Shown here: positions 7,036-29,600 of the stretch, piece after piece
How the letters are laid out: the number at the start of each line of letters is the position of its first letter
Numbering within the stretch: position 1 is the stretch's first letter
Assembly: GCA_009838915.1 (NCBI GenBank)
Contig: VXQT01000027.1
Coordinates: forward strand, 1 to 64,000
Origin: Chloroflexota bacterium
Lineage (GTDB): Bacteria > Chloroflexota > Dehalococcoidia > Bin125
Length of the DNA stretch: 64,000 nt
Direction of reading: 5' to 3'
Translations under genes and position numbers: made by a program
The notes under the pieces: model-generated
What the model was told of the DNA's origin: nothing
The model's database searches: none
The model's input: only the letters and a program-made list of their open reading frames with translations

Positions 7036-9357
7036 CTAGGGCTCGTCAGGTGCGTCGGATGTCACATCGAGACTCACATGCTGCCGCAAAACAGTCGGCA
7101 TGACATTGGAGTCGGTGATCTCGATCGTGACATGTGGGTTGTCAGAGCCGGGAGGGCAATCGAGCTCGATGATGGAGCCGTCCACTCGGGCCGGTTCGTC
7201 GCCGGGCGCCCTGACGCGATACGGCGGCACGCCGCCAGTCGCGCGCCAGACGATTTGCACACGCTCGCCGGTGGTACAGGTTGCGCTCGGCGATGCCTTT
7301 GCGATTACCCGCATTCCAACACGCTGCGGCGGCGAATCGGTGACGTTGATGTGCACGGTCGCCGTGGATTGGTGCGGAGGTTGCGCCTGATCCGTCGCAC
7401 GGAGCATGACGGTCTGCGTCCCGATTGACTGCTGACAGCGGACGGTCGCCACGCCGCCTGGATCAAGTTGGCCATCGACGCCGTCGATCGTGATCGCGAC
7501 TGGTCCCTGTTCGCTGTAGGCATTCCAGCCGATGAGCACGGCCTCGCCCGGTCGGCAATGGCTGCTCAGGAGCGCCGCGGCACTGAACGGCAGCTGTTCC
7601 TCAATCGATCTGGCGAGAGACTCGTACTCCAACGTCAACTCATCCGACTGCGGTGGATCGCTGCGGTCCGAGGCGGTCAATCTGATCTCGTGCGTACCAC
7701 CTTGCTGCGGGCAGTTCAGCACGAGACGATGAGCCGATGGGTCGCGGCCGTTGACTGTGATGGTCAGCGGCGTCCAGTAACCGCCGGTCACTGACCAGTT
7801 GAGATTGAGCGCAGGGCCGCCGATCGGGTTCGCAGTGGTGTATTCCCCGTCGTGCCAGCTGCTCCAGTGTTCGTTGCGTTCTCGGGCGGTCTGGATGTTG
7901 TAGCCGCCGAACTGGCAACTGATCGGGTCAACGTCAGCCGTGATGCGCAGCGGCGCGAGCTGATCGGCGAGATCGTCGCGAAGCGTTGGCGGTTGGCCAA
8001 CCGACGCCACGAGCGCTCGGAGCTGAGTGTGGATCGGGTGGTCCGAGCCGACGGCGGGCGTCGTTGCTCGTGGTTCCTCCCCGTAGGCGCGACCGCTCTC
8101 CACGCCAAACCAGACGGAGGCGGAGACTCCGTCTGAATCCATCCACAGCGAAAACGCATCCTCGCAGTAGTACGGATCGTTGCGGTCGTCGCCCTCGGGC
8201 GGATCGCAGCTGGAGTGCTCGTACCCGCCCGCGTCGGCGACGACGCCCGCTGGAATCGTCAGCAGTTGACCTGAGACCCGGTAGGTCTCGCCGCCGTGCA
8301 GGTCCGCGGCGACAACGTTCTTGATCCCATAGGTGTGAACGACGCCTGATGCGACATTGCCGTTCGCGTCGATCACGATGCCGTGCACACTGTGCAGGCC
8401 GGAGTCGCTGACGCCGCGAGTCAGACGCCCGCATTGCACGTGCAGGTCGCCAAACGCGGCCCCGAACATGTGGCCATCGATGACGATCCGATACGGCGCG
8501 ACGCCGCCGCTGACCTCCCAGGCGACAACGCTCTGCGACGGTCGCCAGGTGGGGCCGGTCTCCTCGCAGATCGCCGGTGCGATCATCCGCAGCCTGAGAT
8601 CGGACGCACCGCCGCCCGAGACGCTGGGCGGCGCCAGGTCAGACGCAGGCTGATTGATCGAAGCGACCAGTTGATCGAACGCCGCGCTCACTGCATCGGC
8701 ATCGAGAGCGCCGTATGCGGAGACTTCCCGACTGAACTCCTCGGCTGGCCAGCGTCGGATCCAGATGCTGGAGCCTCGAAAGTTCCAGCTGCCGGTGAAG
8801 AGCTGGAACCGGTCGGCGCAAGGCGCATCGAGGTCGCGGCAGTCGGCTGAGGTGTAGTCGCCGAGATGCAGGTCGAAGGCCTCGGGAACCGTGATCAAGA
8901 TGCCGTGCACGCGGTAGGTCAGACCGGCCTGCAGCTCGGTGTCGCCGGGTCCGCCATAACTGTCTGCGCGAATCGAACGCACCGCGTTCACGTAGGAGAG
9001 CGCGCCGGCGGTCGCTCCGGTCGCATCGCGGACATGCGCCTGGACAGCGAACAGGCCGGAGTCCACATCGCGTCCCACCCAGACCCCGCAGAGCAGCTGC
9101 GTGACGCCTTGAGCCTGGCCAACGCGCGAGTCGTCGACGAACACCTCGTAGGGGGGTTCCCCACCGACAACCTGCCACTCGACGTTCAAGGTGAGCTCTT
9201 CGTCGCGTTCGTCACCTTCGATGTCGCAGGTGCGTGGGACGGTGAGCATCAATTTGAGCCCTTGCTCGCGACCGATCGACGCCCACGCGCTCGCCGCCGC
9301 CGCGGCCATCATGAGCAGGCTGGCGAGAAGCGCGACGCCGCGACGCCGCCGAGACAT
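7036..9357 (-). CDS. Secreted multidomain protein, two composite GQPP-type modules plus three Ig-like domains
   Basis: This 773-residue exported protein is not assignable to a named family. Residues 1-27 are a signal peptide (basic R-R-R-R, hydrophobic core, A-W-A-S cleavage site). Two long modules follow, at about 34-237 and 252-460. Each starts with a cysteine-bearing strand (V-P-R-T-C or A-P-A-I-C-E), then W-x-V-x-G-G-x-x-P-Y, D-A-x-G or N-G, and A-G/G-G-x-T-Y-R-V-x-G. Each ends in a helix-like L-V-A-S-I/V-x-Q-P. Residues 468-773 hold three shorter Ig-like domains with paired cysteines and motifs such as Q-T-V-M-L-R-A-T-D, which are also found in the metzincin. A strong GGAGGT sits 7 nt before the ATG, inside the end of the upstream gene, so the two are co-translated. 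The role may be surface adhesion or matrix binding; this is unproven. Confidence 0.8.
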   Translation of the reverse strand: MSRRRRGVALLASLLMMAAAAASAWASIGREQGLKLMLTVPRTCDIEGDERDEELTLNVEWQVVGGEPPYEVFVDDSRVGQAQGVTQLLCGVWVGRDVDSGLFAVQAHVRDATGATAGALSYVNAVRSIRADSYGGPGDTELQAGLTYRVHGILITVPEAFDLHLGDYTSADCRDLDAPCADRFQLFTGSWNFRGSSIWIRRWPAEEFSREVSAYGALDADAVSAAFDQLVASINQPASDLAPPSVSGGGASDLRLRMIAPAICEETGPTWRPSQSVVAWEVSGGVAPYRIVIDGHMFGAAFGDLHVQCGRLTRGVSDSGLHSVHGIVIDANGNVASGVVHTYGIKNVVAADLHGGETYRVSGQLLTIPAGVVADAGGYEHSSCDPPEGDDRNDPYYCEDAFSLWMDSDGVSASVWFGVESGRAYGEEPRATTPAVGSDHPIHTQLRALVASVGQPPTLRDDLADQLAPLRITADVDPISCQFGGYNIQTARERNEHWSSWHDGEYTTANPIGGPALNLNWSVTGGYWTPLTITVNGRDPSAHRLVLNCPQQGGTHEIRLTASDRSDPPQSDELTLEYESLARSIEEQLPFSAAALLSSHCRPGEAVLIGWNAYSEQGPVAITIDGVDGQLDPGGVATVRCQQSIGTQTVMLRATDQAQPPHQSTATVHINVTDSPPQRVGMRVIAKASPSATCTTGERVQIVWRATGGVPPYRVRAPGDEPARVDGSIIELDCPPGSDNPHVTIEITDSNVMPTVLRQHVSLDVTSDAPDEP

Positions 9358-21582: not shown

Positions 21583-22806
21583 ATGCCGCGCGTGATGCTC
21601 CTGATACCTACCGCTTCCTATCGCGCGCCCGACTTCATGTCGGCCGCGGACAAGCTCGGTCTGGACGTGGTCGTCGCGTCCGACAACGATCAGCCGCTCG
21701 CGGATATGTATCCGGGACGCTGGCTCACGCTGCCCTACCACGATGTCGAGCGCGGCGCACAAGCGGTGGCCAGGTACGCCGACAGCTTTCCGCTGGATGC
21801 AGTGGTCGCGGTCGACGATCCGGGCACGATCCTGGCCGCCCACGCCAGCGCCGAGCTGCAGCTCAACGGCAACACGCCCGAGTCCGTGATCGGCACTCGG
21901 GACAAGTCCGAACTTCGCCGCGCGCTCGAGTCGCACGGCGTGCGCTCTCCGAGCTGGCAGGTTTGCCGTTTCGATGACGAACCGCCGCTCGGCCAGCTGG
22001 AGTTCCCGGTCGTGGTCAAGCCGTTGGGACTGAACGGCTCCCGCGGCGTGATCCGTGCAAACGACGAGGCATCGCTGCGCCAGGCAATCGAGCGGCTGCG
22101 CCGACTGCTGAGCACCAAGTCGGCGGCGGCGGAGTGCGGAGAACTTGCCGACCGCTTCTTGATCGAGGGTTTCATCCCCGGCATCGAAGTGGCGCTCGAG
22201 GGTCTGCTGCGCGAGGGCGAACTGCACACCCTGGCGGTGTTCGACAAGCCCGACCCGCTGGACGGCCCGTTCTTCGAGGAGACGATTTACGTCACCCCGT
22301 CGCGATTGCCGGAAGCGCAGATCGACGAGGTTGTAGCAACCGCGCGGAAGTCGGCCGAAGCGCTCGGCCTGCAGGATGGCCCGCTGCATGCGGAGCTGCG
22401 GCTCAACGAGGAGGGCGCCTGGCCGGTGGATGTCGCCGCGCGTACGATCGGTGGGCTGTGCGCGCGGACGCTGCGCTTCGGCGCGGGGATGTCGCTGGAA
22501 GAGATCGTGCTGAGACACGCGATCAACGCGCCGCTGGCCTCGCTGAATCGCGAGTCGACGGCGGCGGGCGTGATGATGATGCCAATCGTCGGCCGCGGAC
22601 GCATTCGCGAGATTCGCGGGCTGGATGAAGCGGCAGCGGTCCCCCTGATCGAGGAGATCGAGATGGAGGCGCGTGTCGGCGATGTGCTGGTCCCGCTGCC
22701 GGAAGGCGCCGACTATCCGGGCTTCATCTTCGCCCGAGGCGACGATCCGGCGAAGGTGGAGTCGGCGCTACGGGAGGCCTGGTCGAAGATCGAGTTCGTT
22801 CTGTGA
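21583..22806 (+). CDS. ATP-grasp domain carboxylate-amine ligase-like protein
   Basis: This 407-residue ATP-grasp enzyme should activate a carboxylate with ATP and join it to an amine or thiol; the substrates cannot be read from sequence. A pre-grasp Rossmann-like N-terminus (MPRVMLLIPTASYRAPDF) is followed by F-P-V-V-V-K-P-L-G-L-N-G-S-R-G-V, typical of the ATP-binding loop. Next come F-L-I-E-G-F-I-P-G-I-E-V-A-L-E-G and the Mg-binding H-A-E-L-R-L-N-E-E-G-A-W-P-V-D-V-A-A-R. The last resembles the PurK/carbamoyl-phosphate-synthase-like and dipeptide-ligase (BacD) groups. It diverges from the P-type ATPase gene with almost no intergenic space and may have a leaderless mRNA. Confidence 0.8.
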   Translation: MPRVMLLIPTASYRAPDFMSAADKLGLDVVVASDNDQPLADMYPGRWLTLPYHDVERGAQAVARYADSFPLDAVVAVDDPGTILAAHASAELQLNGNTPESVIGTRDKSELRRALESHGVRSPSWQVCRFDDEPPLGQLEFPVVVKPLGLNGSRGVIRANDEASLRQAIERLRRLLSTKSAAAECGELADRFLIEGFIPGIEVALEGLLREGELHTLAVFDKPDPLDGPFFEETIYVTPSRLPEAQIDEVVATARKSAEALGLQDGPLHAELRLNEEGAWPVDVAARTIGGLCARTLRFGAGMSLEEIVLRHAINAPLASLNRESTAAGVMMMPIVGRGRIREIRGLDEAAAVPLIEEIEMEARVGDVLVPLPEGADYPGFIFARGDDPAKVESALREAWSKIEFVL

Positions 22807-24323: not shown

Positions 24324-25451
24324 ATGACCGAACGCAATACGGGGTGGGTCTACCACGAGGCGTATATGTGGCATGACGCGGGCCGGACCCGCGCGTTCGA
24401 CCCGGTGCTGCGCCGCTGGATGCAGGCCTGGGAACACTGGGAGAACCCGGACACCAAGCGGCGCCTGAACAATCTGCTCGAGGTCTCGGACTTTTCCGAA
24501 GAGCTGGTGCAACTCAAGCCACGCCCCGCAAACGAGGAACAGGTGCTTCGTTTCCACACGCCGGAGTACGTGGACCGGGTCCGTGCGCTCTCGGCCGAGG
24601 ACGGCGGCGACGCGGGCGAGGGCGCGCCGTTCTCACACGGCGGATACGAGATCGCGCTGCTGTCGGCCGGCGGCACGATTACGGCCGTCGACGCGGTGCT
24701 CGACGGCACGGTCGACAATGCCTACGCGCTTGTGCGACCGCCGGGACACCACGCCGAGCGGGATCGGGGGCGCGGCTTCTGCGTGTTCGGGAATGTCGCG
24801 ATCGCCTCGATGCACGCGCTCGCGGAACGCGGGATCGAGCGGGTCGCCACGCTCGACTGGGACGTGCATCACGGCAACGGCACGCAGCAGGCGTTCTACG
24901 AGCGCAAGGACGTCCTGACGATGTCCATCCACCAGGACCAGTGGTATCCGCGAGACAGCGGACGGATGGAGGAGCAAGGCGACGGCGAGGGCGAGGGCTA
25001 CAACATCAACGTCCCCCTGCCTCCCGGCAGCGGGCACGGCGCGTACATCGAGACGATTCGGCAGGTCATCGCACCGGCGCTTGAGGCGTTCCGTCCCGAC
25101 CTGATCGTCGTGCCCTCAGGATTCGACGGCAGCATGTACGACCCGCTGGGCCGGATGATGGCCTACTCGGAGACCTTCCGCGAGATGACTCGCCTGCTGA
25201 TGGAATCGGCCGACGAGCTGTGCTCGGGTCGGCTCGTGCTCAGCCACGAGGGCGGCTACAGCCCGACCTATGTGCCGTTCTGCGGGCTGGCCGTGGTCGA
25301 GGAGCTGAGCGGCAGGAAGTCAATCGCCGGCGATCCGTTCGAGGACAACTCGGCGACGGCGGGCGGGCAAGAGTTACAACCGCACCAGCAGGCCGTGATC
25401 GACGATGCGAAGCTGCTGGTCGAGCGATTACGACAACTTGAAGGCGTCTAG
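24324..25451 (+). CDS. Histone-deacetylase-family amidohydrolase (class II / acetylpolyamine type)
   Basis: A zinc hydrolase that removes acyl groups from amines; in bacteria usually acetylpolyamines or acetylated small molecules and proteins. The 375-residue sequence contains the family hallmarks: R-P-P-G-H-H-A-E (catalytic histidines), D-W-D-V-H-H-G-N-G-T-Q (zinc-binding Asp and His), S-G-F-D-G-S-M-Y-D-P-L-G (second zinc Asp) and E-G-G-Y-S. GAGGAAG precedes the ATG at good spacing. Its TAG shares a CTAG with the stop of the convergent radical-SAM selenoprotein gene. Confidence 0.9.
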   Translation: MTERNTGWVYHEAYMWHDAGRTRAFDPVLRRWMQAWEHWENPDTKRRLNNLLEVSDFSEELVQLKPRPANEEQVLRFHTPEYVDRVRALSAEDGGDAGEGAPFSHGGYEIALLSAGGTITAVDAVLDGTVDNAYALVRPPGHHAERDRGRGFCVFGNVAIASMHALAERGIERVATLDWDVHHGNGTQQAFYERKDVLTMSIHQDQWYPRDSGRMEEQGDGEGEGYNINVPLPPGSGHGAYIETIRQVIAPALEAFRPDLIVVPSGFDGSMYDPLGRMMAYSETFREMTRLLMESADELCSGRLVLSHEGGYSPTYVPFCGLAVVEELSGRKSIAGDPFEDNSATAGGQELQPHQQAVIDDAKLLVERLRQLEGV

Positions 25452-26827
25452 CGCTCGATTAGCGGGATCGCATCAGTTCCAGCTGTGACGCTGAGGGGAG
25501 CCAACTGCTCCCCGGTCGGCTCCGCTCAACAGAACCAGTCTTCGGTCAGGCCGGGACGATGCAGATGGGGAGCGGGCAGATTCGGCCAGGGTTCGGCGCC
25601 GAGCGCCAGGCAGGCGGCCTGCTTGATCTCTGCGAAGGCCGCGCCGCGCTCTGCGAGCGAAGCTACCTGCGACTGCAGGGCGTCCATGCGCTCGTCCGGA
25701 TGACGCCAGTTCCAGGTCAGGCCGTCTGCGTCGTAACTGATCAACGCATTCATTTCGCGCATCGGCTCGACCAGCGGTGAGTCAGCCGGAACGAGCAGGC
25801 GGAGGCCGAGTTGGACCGGTGGCGTCAGGTCGACGAGCCCTCGGGTCTCGACGAACTGCAGCAGCGCGAGATAGTCCTTGGCCGCGGTCCAGGGGGTGAA
25901 GGGCAGCCAGGTCGGACGCAGGGCGATGCCGACCTCCTGCGTCGAATGCAGCACGCGGTCCAAGTCCGACGCAGTGTGGCCTTTGTCGAGAATTTCCAGC
26001 AGGCGATCGTCCACGGACTCGAACGCCGAGGTGATGAAGGTCACGCCCAGCGCGGACATCTCTCCGAGCATACTTTCGTGCTCGATCAGGTGCTCGACCT
26101 TGATTGTGGCGTCGAAGGTCATACCGGGATGCGACTCGGCGCTGGCTCGGAGCAAATCCACTGCAAGGTCGGGTGCATTGAGAAAGTCGGGGTCGCCGAA
26201 GGTAATGTGTTCTGCGCCCATCGACACCTGTTGGTCGATGTCGGCGAGCACCGTGTCTGCGCCGTTGAGTCGGAGCCGGCCCGCGTAGATCGGTGTGAGC
26301 GGGCAATGCGTGCAGCGGTGGGCGCAGCCGCGCGTAGCTTCTACGTGTCCGGCCAGGTGCGCGACGCCTGAGGCGTCCATGTAGCGGGCGTACTGCTCCA
26401 GTGGAGGCAACAGCGATCGGTCCGGAACCAGCCGTTTCTCGCGATCGAACACGGGAGCGAGCTGTGGTTCATCGCCGTTGGCGAGCGCGACCAGTTGCAG
26501 ATCGGTGTCGCCGCTGATCGCGCGACCCAACCCTAGGTCGCGCAACGAGTTCGCGGCTAGTCCATAGAAGACGATCTTGTCGGACATCGCCTCAAGCTGG
26601 CGTGCGATGCGGATACCGAGCCGCGCCGCGGTGTGCATCGGGGTCGAGATGCCGATCAGGTCGGCATCGGCTGCGTCGACGCGAAGTCGCTCCGGGCTGA
26701 CTGACTCCACTGCGAGGTCAAAGGCTGTGACATCGTGTCCGGCGGCCATCAGAGCCGCAGTGGGCGCGGCGACGCCGAGCGGTTGGTGACCCTGCTCGTA
26801 AGTTGAGATCAGAAGGACGCGCGTCAT
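25448..26827 (-). CDS. Radical SAM selenoprotein with CUAEP tail (TGA at 25526-25528 read as Sec)
   Basis: An N-terminal B12-binding-like Rossmann domain (V-L-L-I-S-T-Y-E-Q-G-H-Q-P-L-G) precedes a radical SAM domain whose CAHRCTHC (Cys168, 172, 175) binds the 4Fe-4S cluster. The frame seems to stop at W-F-C followed by TGA. Reading through gives C-U-A-E-P, then 22 more residues to TAG. This matches what I recall of the CUAEP/CCAEP-tail radical SAM family, where the position is Sec or Cys. A SECIS-like hairpin follows the TGA. The extended stop forms a 4-bp CTAG overlap with the convergent HDAC-like gene. Total length would be 459 residues with Sec434. nfuA lies 18 bp upstream on the same strand and may supply the cluster. 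Reaction and substrate are unknown. Confidence in Sec depends on selenium genes elsewhere in the genome. Confidence 0.82.
25495..25528 (-). promoter_or_regulatory. Bacterial SECIS-like element behind the Sec TGA
   Basis: Starting 12 nt after TGA, GGGGAGC pairs perfectly with GCTCCCC around a five-base loop AGTTG. The loop's G is 21 nt from the TGA. A short hairpin with a G among the first loop bases, about 16-37 nt downstream, is the known bacterial SECIS layout recognised by SelB. An alternative stem (GGAGCCGAC with GTTGGCTCC) overlaps it. Confidence 0.7.
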
Positions 26828-26845: not shown

Positions 26846-27454
26846 CTACTTCTTCGACGGCTTGTAGTAGGGATTCTCGCCGGATTGGTGATCGGTGATG
26901 TCGATCAGTTCGTCGATCTCGGGGAGCTGTTCCTTGACTGCGACCTCGATGCCCTGCTTGAGGGTGACGTTGGCCATGCCGCAGCCCTGACAGCCGCCGC
27001 CCATTTCGATGTAGGCCTTCGAGCCCTGTACGTCGAGCAACTGCACGAACCCGCCATGCGCAGCGATCTGCGGGTTGACCTGCTCGTCGAAGATGCGCTG
27101 GATCTCTTGCGCCAGGGGATCGCGCCAGACAGGGTTCGGGTTGGCGAATTCGAGACCGGAGACATTGGGGCCCTTGAACTCGTAGTGGATCGTGGTGCCG
27201 CGCAGATCGTCAATACGCTCGCCCTCGACGTAGAGCAAGAAATCCGGGTACTGCACGATGGCGTCGCCGGACGGCTCGTAGTTCTTCTCGACGATCGTCA
27301 GGACGTGCTCGAATCCCTCCGACGTACGTCCGGAGATCTTCAGCCGCAGGCCCGCAACTTCCTCCGGATAACCGGTCAACACCTCGAGCAGCTTCTCGCG
27401 CGCCACCTCGGAGAAGGTGATGCCCAGATCGCCTGTGAGCGCCTCGGTTGTCAT
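26846..27454 (-). CDS. nfuA: NfuA-like Fe-S cluster carrier
   Basis: Carries and delivers 4Fe-4S clusters to apo-enzymes in the cytoplasm. The N-terminal half is an A-type (IscA-like) domain with no cysteine, as in degenerate NfuA domains. The C-terminal half is a NifU-like domain with H-G-G-F-V-Q-L-L-D-V and the cluster-binding G-G-G-C-Q-G-C-G-M-A (C-x-x-C). The ATG at 27454 was chosen for AGGGGAA at good spacing; the frame is open 8 codons further. It is co-directional with, and 18 bp from, the radical-SAM selenoprotein gene, a likely client. Confidence 0.9.
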   Translation of the reverse strand: MTTEALTGDLGITFSEVAREKLLEVLTGYPEEVAGLRLKISGRTSEGFEHVLTIVEKNYEPSGDAIVQYPDFLLYVEGERIDDLRGTTIHYEFKGPNVSGLEFANPNPVWRDPLAQEIQRIFDEQVNPQIAAHGGFVQLLDVQGSKAYIEMGGGCQGCGMANVTLKQGIEVAVKEQLPEIDELIDITDHQSGENPYYKPSKK

Positions 27455-27526
27455 TGCGTTCCCCTGTCCGGATCTCATTTCCTAGCATAGCGTTCGGTCA
27501 GGTTGGACATGTGATGGGAGCGGCAC

Positions 27527-29273: not shown

Positions 29274-29600
29274 ATGATCTACGAACTCCGCATCTACACC
29301 GCGCATCCGGGCAAGATGGGAGCGCTGATGAAGCGTTTCCGCGACCACACGATGGATCTGTTCGAGCGCCACGGCATCCACAACGTCGGCTACTGGACCA
29401 ACTCGGTCGGCGGCCGCTCGGACGAGCTCTGGTACATCATCAGCTTCGAGAGCGCCGGCCAGCGCGATGAAGCATGGAAGAACTTTGCTTCCGACCCCGA
29501 GTGGCAAGCCGCCCGAGCCGCCTCCGAGGAGAACGGCCCACTGGTCCACCACATCGAGAACCGAATCCTCCAACCCACCGAGTGGTCGCCGATGCCCTAG
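29274..29600 (+). CDS. NIPSNAP family protein
   Basis: This 108-residue dimeric alpha-beta barrel-like protein begins M-I-Y-E-L-R-I-Y-T, the standard NIPSNAP opening. The motif G-Y-W-T-N-S-V-G-G and a late F-A-S-D-P-E-W-Q-A follow. The true start is the ATG after AAAGGAAA, not the longer overlapping frame that opens inside the upstream gene. The family has no firm biochemical role; bacterial members often sit beside catabolic hydrolases, as here. Its TAG overlaps the convergent methyltransferase stop as CTAG. Confidence 0.9.
   Translation: MIYELRIYTAHPGKMGALMKRFRDHTMDLFERHGIHNVGYWTNSVGGRSDELWYIISFESAGQRDEAWKNFASDPEWQAARAASEENGPLVHHIENRILQPTEWSPMP

Follow-up and report, generated by a model that had tools for sequence, protein, structure and literature searches.

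Genomic localization of the radical SAM gene and its in-frame TGA

Analysis of a 64,000-nucleotide stretch of a Chloroflexota genome (the window; source genome of 2.87 Mb, 95% complete, with Dehalococcoidia/Chloroflexota MAGs as named relatives) revealed a radical SAM gene on the reverse strand with a reading frame that very probably continues through an in-frame TGA codon. The gene, its predicted signals and its two nearest neighbours are arranged as follows:

24324 to 25451, forward strand: HDAC-like gene, convergent, given as context only (Pfam Hist_deacetyl, 294 bits; synteny within the genus)
25448 to 26827, reverse strand: predicted CUAEP-tail radical SAM selenoprotein, 459 amino acids with Sec434 (NF040546, Pfam, AlphaFold)
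25448 to 25525, reverse strand: predicted coding extension after the TGA, AEP plus 22 residues and TAG (AEP invariant)
25495 to 25513, reverse strand: predicted SECIS, 7-bp stem GGGGAGC/GCUCCCC, loop AGUUG, 12 nt after the UGA (covariation; collapse in Cys homologues)
25526 to 25528, reverse strand: in-frame TGA, predicted Sec codon 434 (frame reading; TGA or Cys at this codon in homologues)
26846 to 27478, reverse strand: NfuA-like Fe-S protein with a degenerate HesB-like and a NifU domain, probable operon partner (Pfam NifU, 72 bits)

The radical SAM frame starts with an ATG 18 bp past the NfuA-like gene and runs for 433 codons to the TGA, where the open reading frame of the gene caller (433 amino acids) ends. 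Read from 26827 to 25448 with TGA as U, the frame encodes 459 amino acids with the end LTEDWFC-U434-AEPTGEQLAPLSVTAGTDAIPLIER; the codons after the TGA specify AEP-TGEQLAPLSVTAGTDAIPLIER and are followed by a TAG. This TAG and the TAG of the convergent HDAC-like gene overlap as CTAG (25448 to 25451), and a second CTAG stop overlap is located in the window at 29597 to 29600. The stem arms GGGGAGC (25513 to 25507) and GCTCCCC (25501 to 25495) enclose the loop AGTTG, and the distance from the TGA is exactly 12 nt. The original prediction for this locus had described the W-F-C-TGA end with A-E-P and 22 further residues up to a TAG, the perfect 7-bp stem and the repeated CTAG overlap. Re-reading of the frame and re-checking of the positions reproduced each of these exactly.

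Classification and architecture of the protein

Comparison of the read-through protein with curated families revealed a match to NF040546, the CUAEP/CCAEP-tail radical SAM (seleno)protein family (E value of 9e-143, 476 bits, profile positions 1 to 467 of 468). A whole-genome search with NF040546, reading through TGA, likewise covered positions 1 to 467. The CUAEP/CCAEP family named in the original prediction therefore exists, and the match to it is full length. The score of 476 bits falls short of the 500 bits curated as the equivalog cut-off. Genomes of the same genus scored 457 to 479 bits, in contrast to 522 to 581 bits in genomes of other genera of the same taxonomic family (G016, G018, and G019), which indicates a divergent subgroup whose sameness of function with the family, as implied by the equivalog level, is not assured. 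The next-best family was ArsL (NF040542), with 254 bits.

The locus had originally been called an unannotated selenoprotein. The assignment as a selenoprotein held, but "unannotated" was too strong, because NCBI already names the family and its Sec/Cys duality. RefSeq uses the NF040546 name for a protein of Thermomicrobium roseum (WP_012643191.1; L101 5935 to 7371, NC_011961.1), which is annotated to end in WFC, although the DNA continues with TGA-GCG-GAG-CCG, corresponding to U-AEP. The truncation by automatic annotation that had been foreseen for the window gene is demonstrated by this entry. Read-through of the T. roseum frame gave U-AEPLEDPSGP, with a hairpin of the GAGGACC/GGGTCCC type. 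A search of an open-access library found no paper naming the CUAEP family.

The deduced protein comprises an N-terminal B12-binding-like Rossmann domain, a radical SAM barrel, and an extended C terminus with W-F-C433-U434-A-E-P. The cysteine motif CxxxCxxC (C168-x3-C172-x2-C175) is invariant in the family alignment, and the C-terminal pattern of the family is P-x-L-x-E-x-W-x-C433-(C/U)434-A-E-P. Pfam detected Radical_SAM (PF04055) with 48 bits and B12-binding (PF02310) with 30.1 bits, the latter below its cut-off of 32.1. A sequence search of solved structures gave marginal radical SAM matches alone (MiaB and Elp3, E values of about 0.007 to 0.01). The AlphaFold model (pLDDT of 91, pTM of 0.90) was closest to AprD4, OxsB, MgmA, and TsrM, a set that includes both cobalamin-dependent enzymes and AprD4. 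The CxxxCxxC motif and the SAM barrel indicate that the protein is a member of the radical SAM superfamily, and the predicted fold is that of class-B-like radical SAM enzymes.

Gene neighbourhood

The NfuA-like gene lies directly upstream of the radical SAM gene on the same strand. Its product scored 103 bits against TIGR03341, below the cut-off of 269. The same arrangement was found in the genus of the window and in the distant loci L036, L037, L041, and L076 and the deltaproteobacterial locus L039, comprising Sec and Cys members; in most other Chloroflexota members the radical SAM gene is without this neighbour. Conservation of the HDAC-like, CocE-like, P-type ATPase, and methyltransferase genes at the locus is limited to the genus and is uninformative with respect to function. 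No arsenic or metalloid genes were found beside CUAEP family members in the loci examined, and a search of the source genome, run without a control, found no relative of ArsM of the arsinothricin cluster. ATP-grasp ligases are encoded a few genes away from CUAEP in the window (21583 to 22806, LAL_C2 domain) and in L037 (8610 to 9914); in Priestia (L103 1689 to 2912), an ATP-grasp gene is located close to a radical SAM gene with the RCCLKC tail. This proximity is possibly a coincidence within a common family.

Selenocysteine machinery and homologous tails

Two checks had been proposed for the predicted selenocysteine, the machinery of the genome and the tails of homologues, and both came out in its favour. 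The source genome contains tRNA-Sec (RF01852, 70.8 bits, above the Rfam cut-off; identified by ARAGORN as tRNA-SeC, anticodon tca), selB (348 bits with its neighbours in frame, above the cut-off), selA (528 bits), and selD (350 bits). The selD gene (L018, C24:22895-23836) itself has an in-frame TGA and probably encodes a selenoprotein SelD. Within the phylum, selA was present in 49 of the 51 genomes whose match contains an in-frame TGA; the two genomes without it are 76% and 86% complete. Since 322 of the 400 genomes sampled from the phylum have selA, among them Cys-type genomes, this co-occurrence confirms selA in Sec-type genomes and does not discriminate between Sec and Cys.

The CUAEP protein was found in 99 of 400 sampled phylum genomes. 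Analysis of the 51 homologues with a readable tail revealed TGA at codon 434 in 35 and Cys in 16, with A-E-P kept in every one of them and invariant in the alignment. Each searched genome of the genus contains a single TGA in the matching region, and the Sec members of the genus retain TG[DE]QLAPL. Members with Cys are spread over several lineages, among them the Dehalococcoidia genome L037 and the deltaproteobacterium L039, and the acidobacterium L038 is a Sec member. A tree with 33 Sec and 15 Cys rows required at least five Sec/Cys exchanges, which indicates that Sec and Cys swap repeatedly. In L039 (near position 7218), the WFCCAEP tail is out of frame with the body of the match, owing to a frameshift or a sequencing error, and the short tail after AEP is without a hairpin.

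The hairpin downstream of the TGA

Bacterial SECIS elements, such as that of Escherichia coli fdhF, are hairpins positioned just 3' of the UGA, inside the coding frame. The bSECISearch criteria comprise a distance of 16 to 37 nt from the UGA to the apical loop, a loop of 3 to 14 nt, and a G in the first two bases of the loop. The window hairpin, with 19 nt from the UGA to the loop, a 5-nt loop (AGUUG) with G in second position, and a 7-bp stem, falls within these rules, and the SECIS-like geometry originally ascribed to it was thus borne out. An Rfam scan of the tail gave no SECIS-type match and one irrelevant match (E value of 3.9). Perfect 7-bp hairpins with a loop of 3 to 8 nt that start 8 to 20 nt downstream of a TGA were counted at 16 of the 1717 TGA triplets of the window (0.9%), so the hairpin by itself is suggestive only.

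Covariation was determined in an alignment of 34 TGA sequences, from which the unusual TGA sequence L083 was omitted. The hairpin showed a covariation of 0.242 versus 0.113 in shuffled alignments (0 of 500), 81.9% paired cells versus 72.6% (none of 500 as high), and 23 cells changed on both sides of the stem versus 10.9 (0 of 500); the shuffles keep the kinship among the sequences, so that independence is overstated, yet the exchanges recur across families. All measures dropped when the stem partners were slid out of register. Coordinated swaps comprised GC/CG/UA at one pair and GC/CG/AU at another, and the stem occurred as GGGGAGC/GCTCCCC, GCGGAGC/GCTCCGC, GCGGATC/GATCCGC, GCGGGTC/GACCCGC, and GAGGAGC/GCTCCTC. 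In the Cys homologues, pairing was down to 6 to 38% at the five inner pairs.

Codon choice was compared with random synonymous codons for a fixed peptide. Folding energies in the TGA set summed to -258 versus -164 +/- 11 (0 of 1000), and the Cys homologue L037 was average. The Leu codon in the loop was TTG in 18 of 19 cases and TTA in the remaining one; among 1344 upstream Leu codons, TTG was used 114 times. Many members of the genus carry GGGGACCAGUUGGCCCC (GAC-CAG-TTG-GCC), in which two of the seven pairs fail as drawn. For these members a bulged variant, GGGG-A-CC-AGUU-GG-CCCC, is predicted, with a bulged A, a 2-bp apical stem, and the loop AGUU. Among the genus relatives L022, L024 to L027, L029, L030, and L032, both forms were observed, the continuous 7-bp stem with GAG/GCT codons and the bulged-A form with a 2-bp apical part and GAC/GCC codons. 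The hairpin of L034 is weak. Covariation, codon choice beyond the need of the peptide, and decay in the Cys homologues indicate that the hairpin is a conserved SECIS, a functional RNA rather than a chance stem.

Interpretation of the TGA codon

Conservation, covariation, and the presence of the machinery together point to recoding, and the gene very probably encodes a CUAEP/CCAEP-tail radical SAM selenoprotein in which Sec is inserted at the UGA via the SECIS. SelB with Sec-tRNA(Sec) would bind the hairpin 12 nt past the UGA, and Sec would enter at position 434. The chain would thereby gain a Cys-Sec pair near its C terminus, with A-E-P and a short, variable extension behind it.

A reading of the UGA as Trp or Cys, or a nonspecific readthrough, would account for the Cys found at the site in 16 homologues, but it is highly improbable. 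Three neighbouring genes in the window end in TGA, so the code is not reassigned, and a reassigned code was ruled out on this ground. In addition, tRNA-Sec, selA, selB, and selD are all present, and the hairpin deteriorates in homologues with a Cys codon, which would be expected only of an element devoted to Sec insertion. The further alternative that the TGA is a true stop, with a protein ending at C433 and a downstream frame and hairpin due to chance or a terminator, agrees with the 433-amino-acid frame of the gene caller, the RefSeq annotation of the T. roseum homologue, and the 0.9% chance rate of comparable hairpins, but it is scarcely credible and was refuted on comparative grounds, given the invariant AEP in 51 homologues (16 of which read on with Cys), the covariation and codon bias at the hairpin, and the finding of no terminator-like site.

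Possible function of the Cys-Sec pair

In the proposed mechanism, SAM would be cleaved by the [4Fe-4S] cluster, and the terminal C433-U434 pair may serve in the active site, either by binding a soft metal or metalloid or as a redox-active nucleophile. The adjacent NfuA-like protein would probably supply or repair the Fe-S cluster. The reading favoured here is radical SAM chemistry in which the Cys-Sec pair is a ligand or nucleophile of the active site; this role has about an even chance of being correct.

A B12-fold or cobalamin-dependent radical SAM methylase or dehydratase acting on an organic substrate, with Cys-Sec as ligand of an auxiliary cluster, is a possible, tentative alternative. 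The closest folds (AprD4, OxsB, MgmA, and TsrM), the weak B12-binding match, and the adjoining gene for an NfuA-like Fe-S protein are consistent with it; however, the B12-binding match is under the cut-off, and the top fold, AprD4, shares 15% identity, so that the substrate class need not transfer.

It is unlikely that the protein forms carbon-metalloid bonds as ArsL does, in a reaction where As(III), Se, or Te would be bound by Cys-Sec and SAM would donate a 3-amino-3-carboxypropyl group or a different one. ArsL, the nearest characterized relative, ranks next by score, has CxxxCxxC and a terminal vicinal Cys pair in common with the window protein, and converts As(III) to hydroxyarsinothricin (PMC8552651); As(III) could be bound comparably by the terminal CC of this sister enzyme. 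Against this stand an identity of 31 to 34% and a deep split in the tree between the CUAEP family and ArsL (branch of 1.81). The reading is weakened further by the lack of ars genes adjoining the examined members, whereas ArsL is found in ars clusters, and by the lack of an ArsM relative in the source genome. A Sec-dependent radical SAM enzyme that joins carbon to a metalloid (As, Se, or Te), or builds an organometalloid by another route, is more doubtful still; if this were correct, the terminal Cys-Sec pair would be a metalloid site, the NfuA-like Fe-S protein would be the dedicated partner of the enzyme, and the system would be widespread in Chloroflexota. Direct handles on function are offered by the exchange of Sec and Cys, the covariation of the hairpin, and the Fe-S partner.

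Comparison with known systems

Like the SECIS of E. coli fdhF, the window hairpin has G at loop position 2 and GU in the loop, and the genus variant has a bulged base under a short apical stem, as in bacterial SECIS elements. It differs in its own consensus, GGAGC-AGUUG-GCUCC, and in a bulged base that is A, not U.

Members of ArsL (NF040542) are defined by an RCCLKC tail, a score above 450 bits, and an ars operon; the window protein has 254 bits, the tail WFCUAEP, and no ars genes nearby. The two are homologous over residues 1 to 407, and the CC of the ArsL-type end, RCCLKC, aligns with the Cys-Sec pair of the window protein. Unlike the latter, the ArsL tail is without AEP and without Sec. 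The parallel of a terminal vicinal CC and a metalloid substrate is therefore a resemblance and not membership.

With NF040546, the window protein shares the C-(U/C)-A-E-P tail, here WFC-U-AEP, the Sec/Cys duality, and the radical SAM motif; it differs in the scores of its genus, which are all below 500 bits, and in the 22 residues past AEP. The family and its Sec/Cys alternation were already known and named by NCBI. The present analysis adds a lineage that lies under the family cut-off and is prone to truncation, the truncated T. roseum entry, a covariation-backed SECIS, and the link to an Fe-S partner. The gene model is corrected as well, which automatic annotation would end just ahead of the conserved A-E-P tail, and the near miss to the NCBI cut-off suggests that the whole genus is probably misannotated. 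The CUAEP family thus emerges as common across Chloroflexota and often Sec-containing, with a covarying SECIS.
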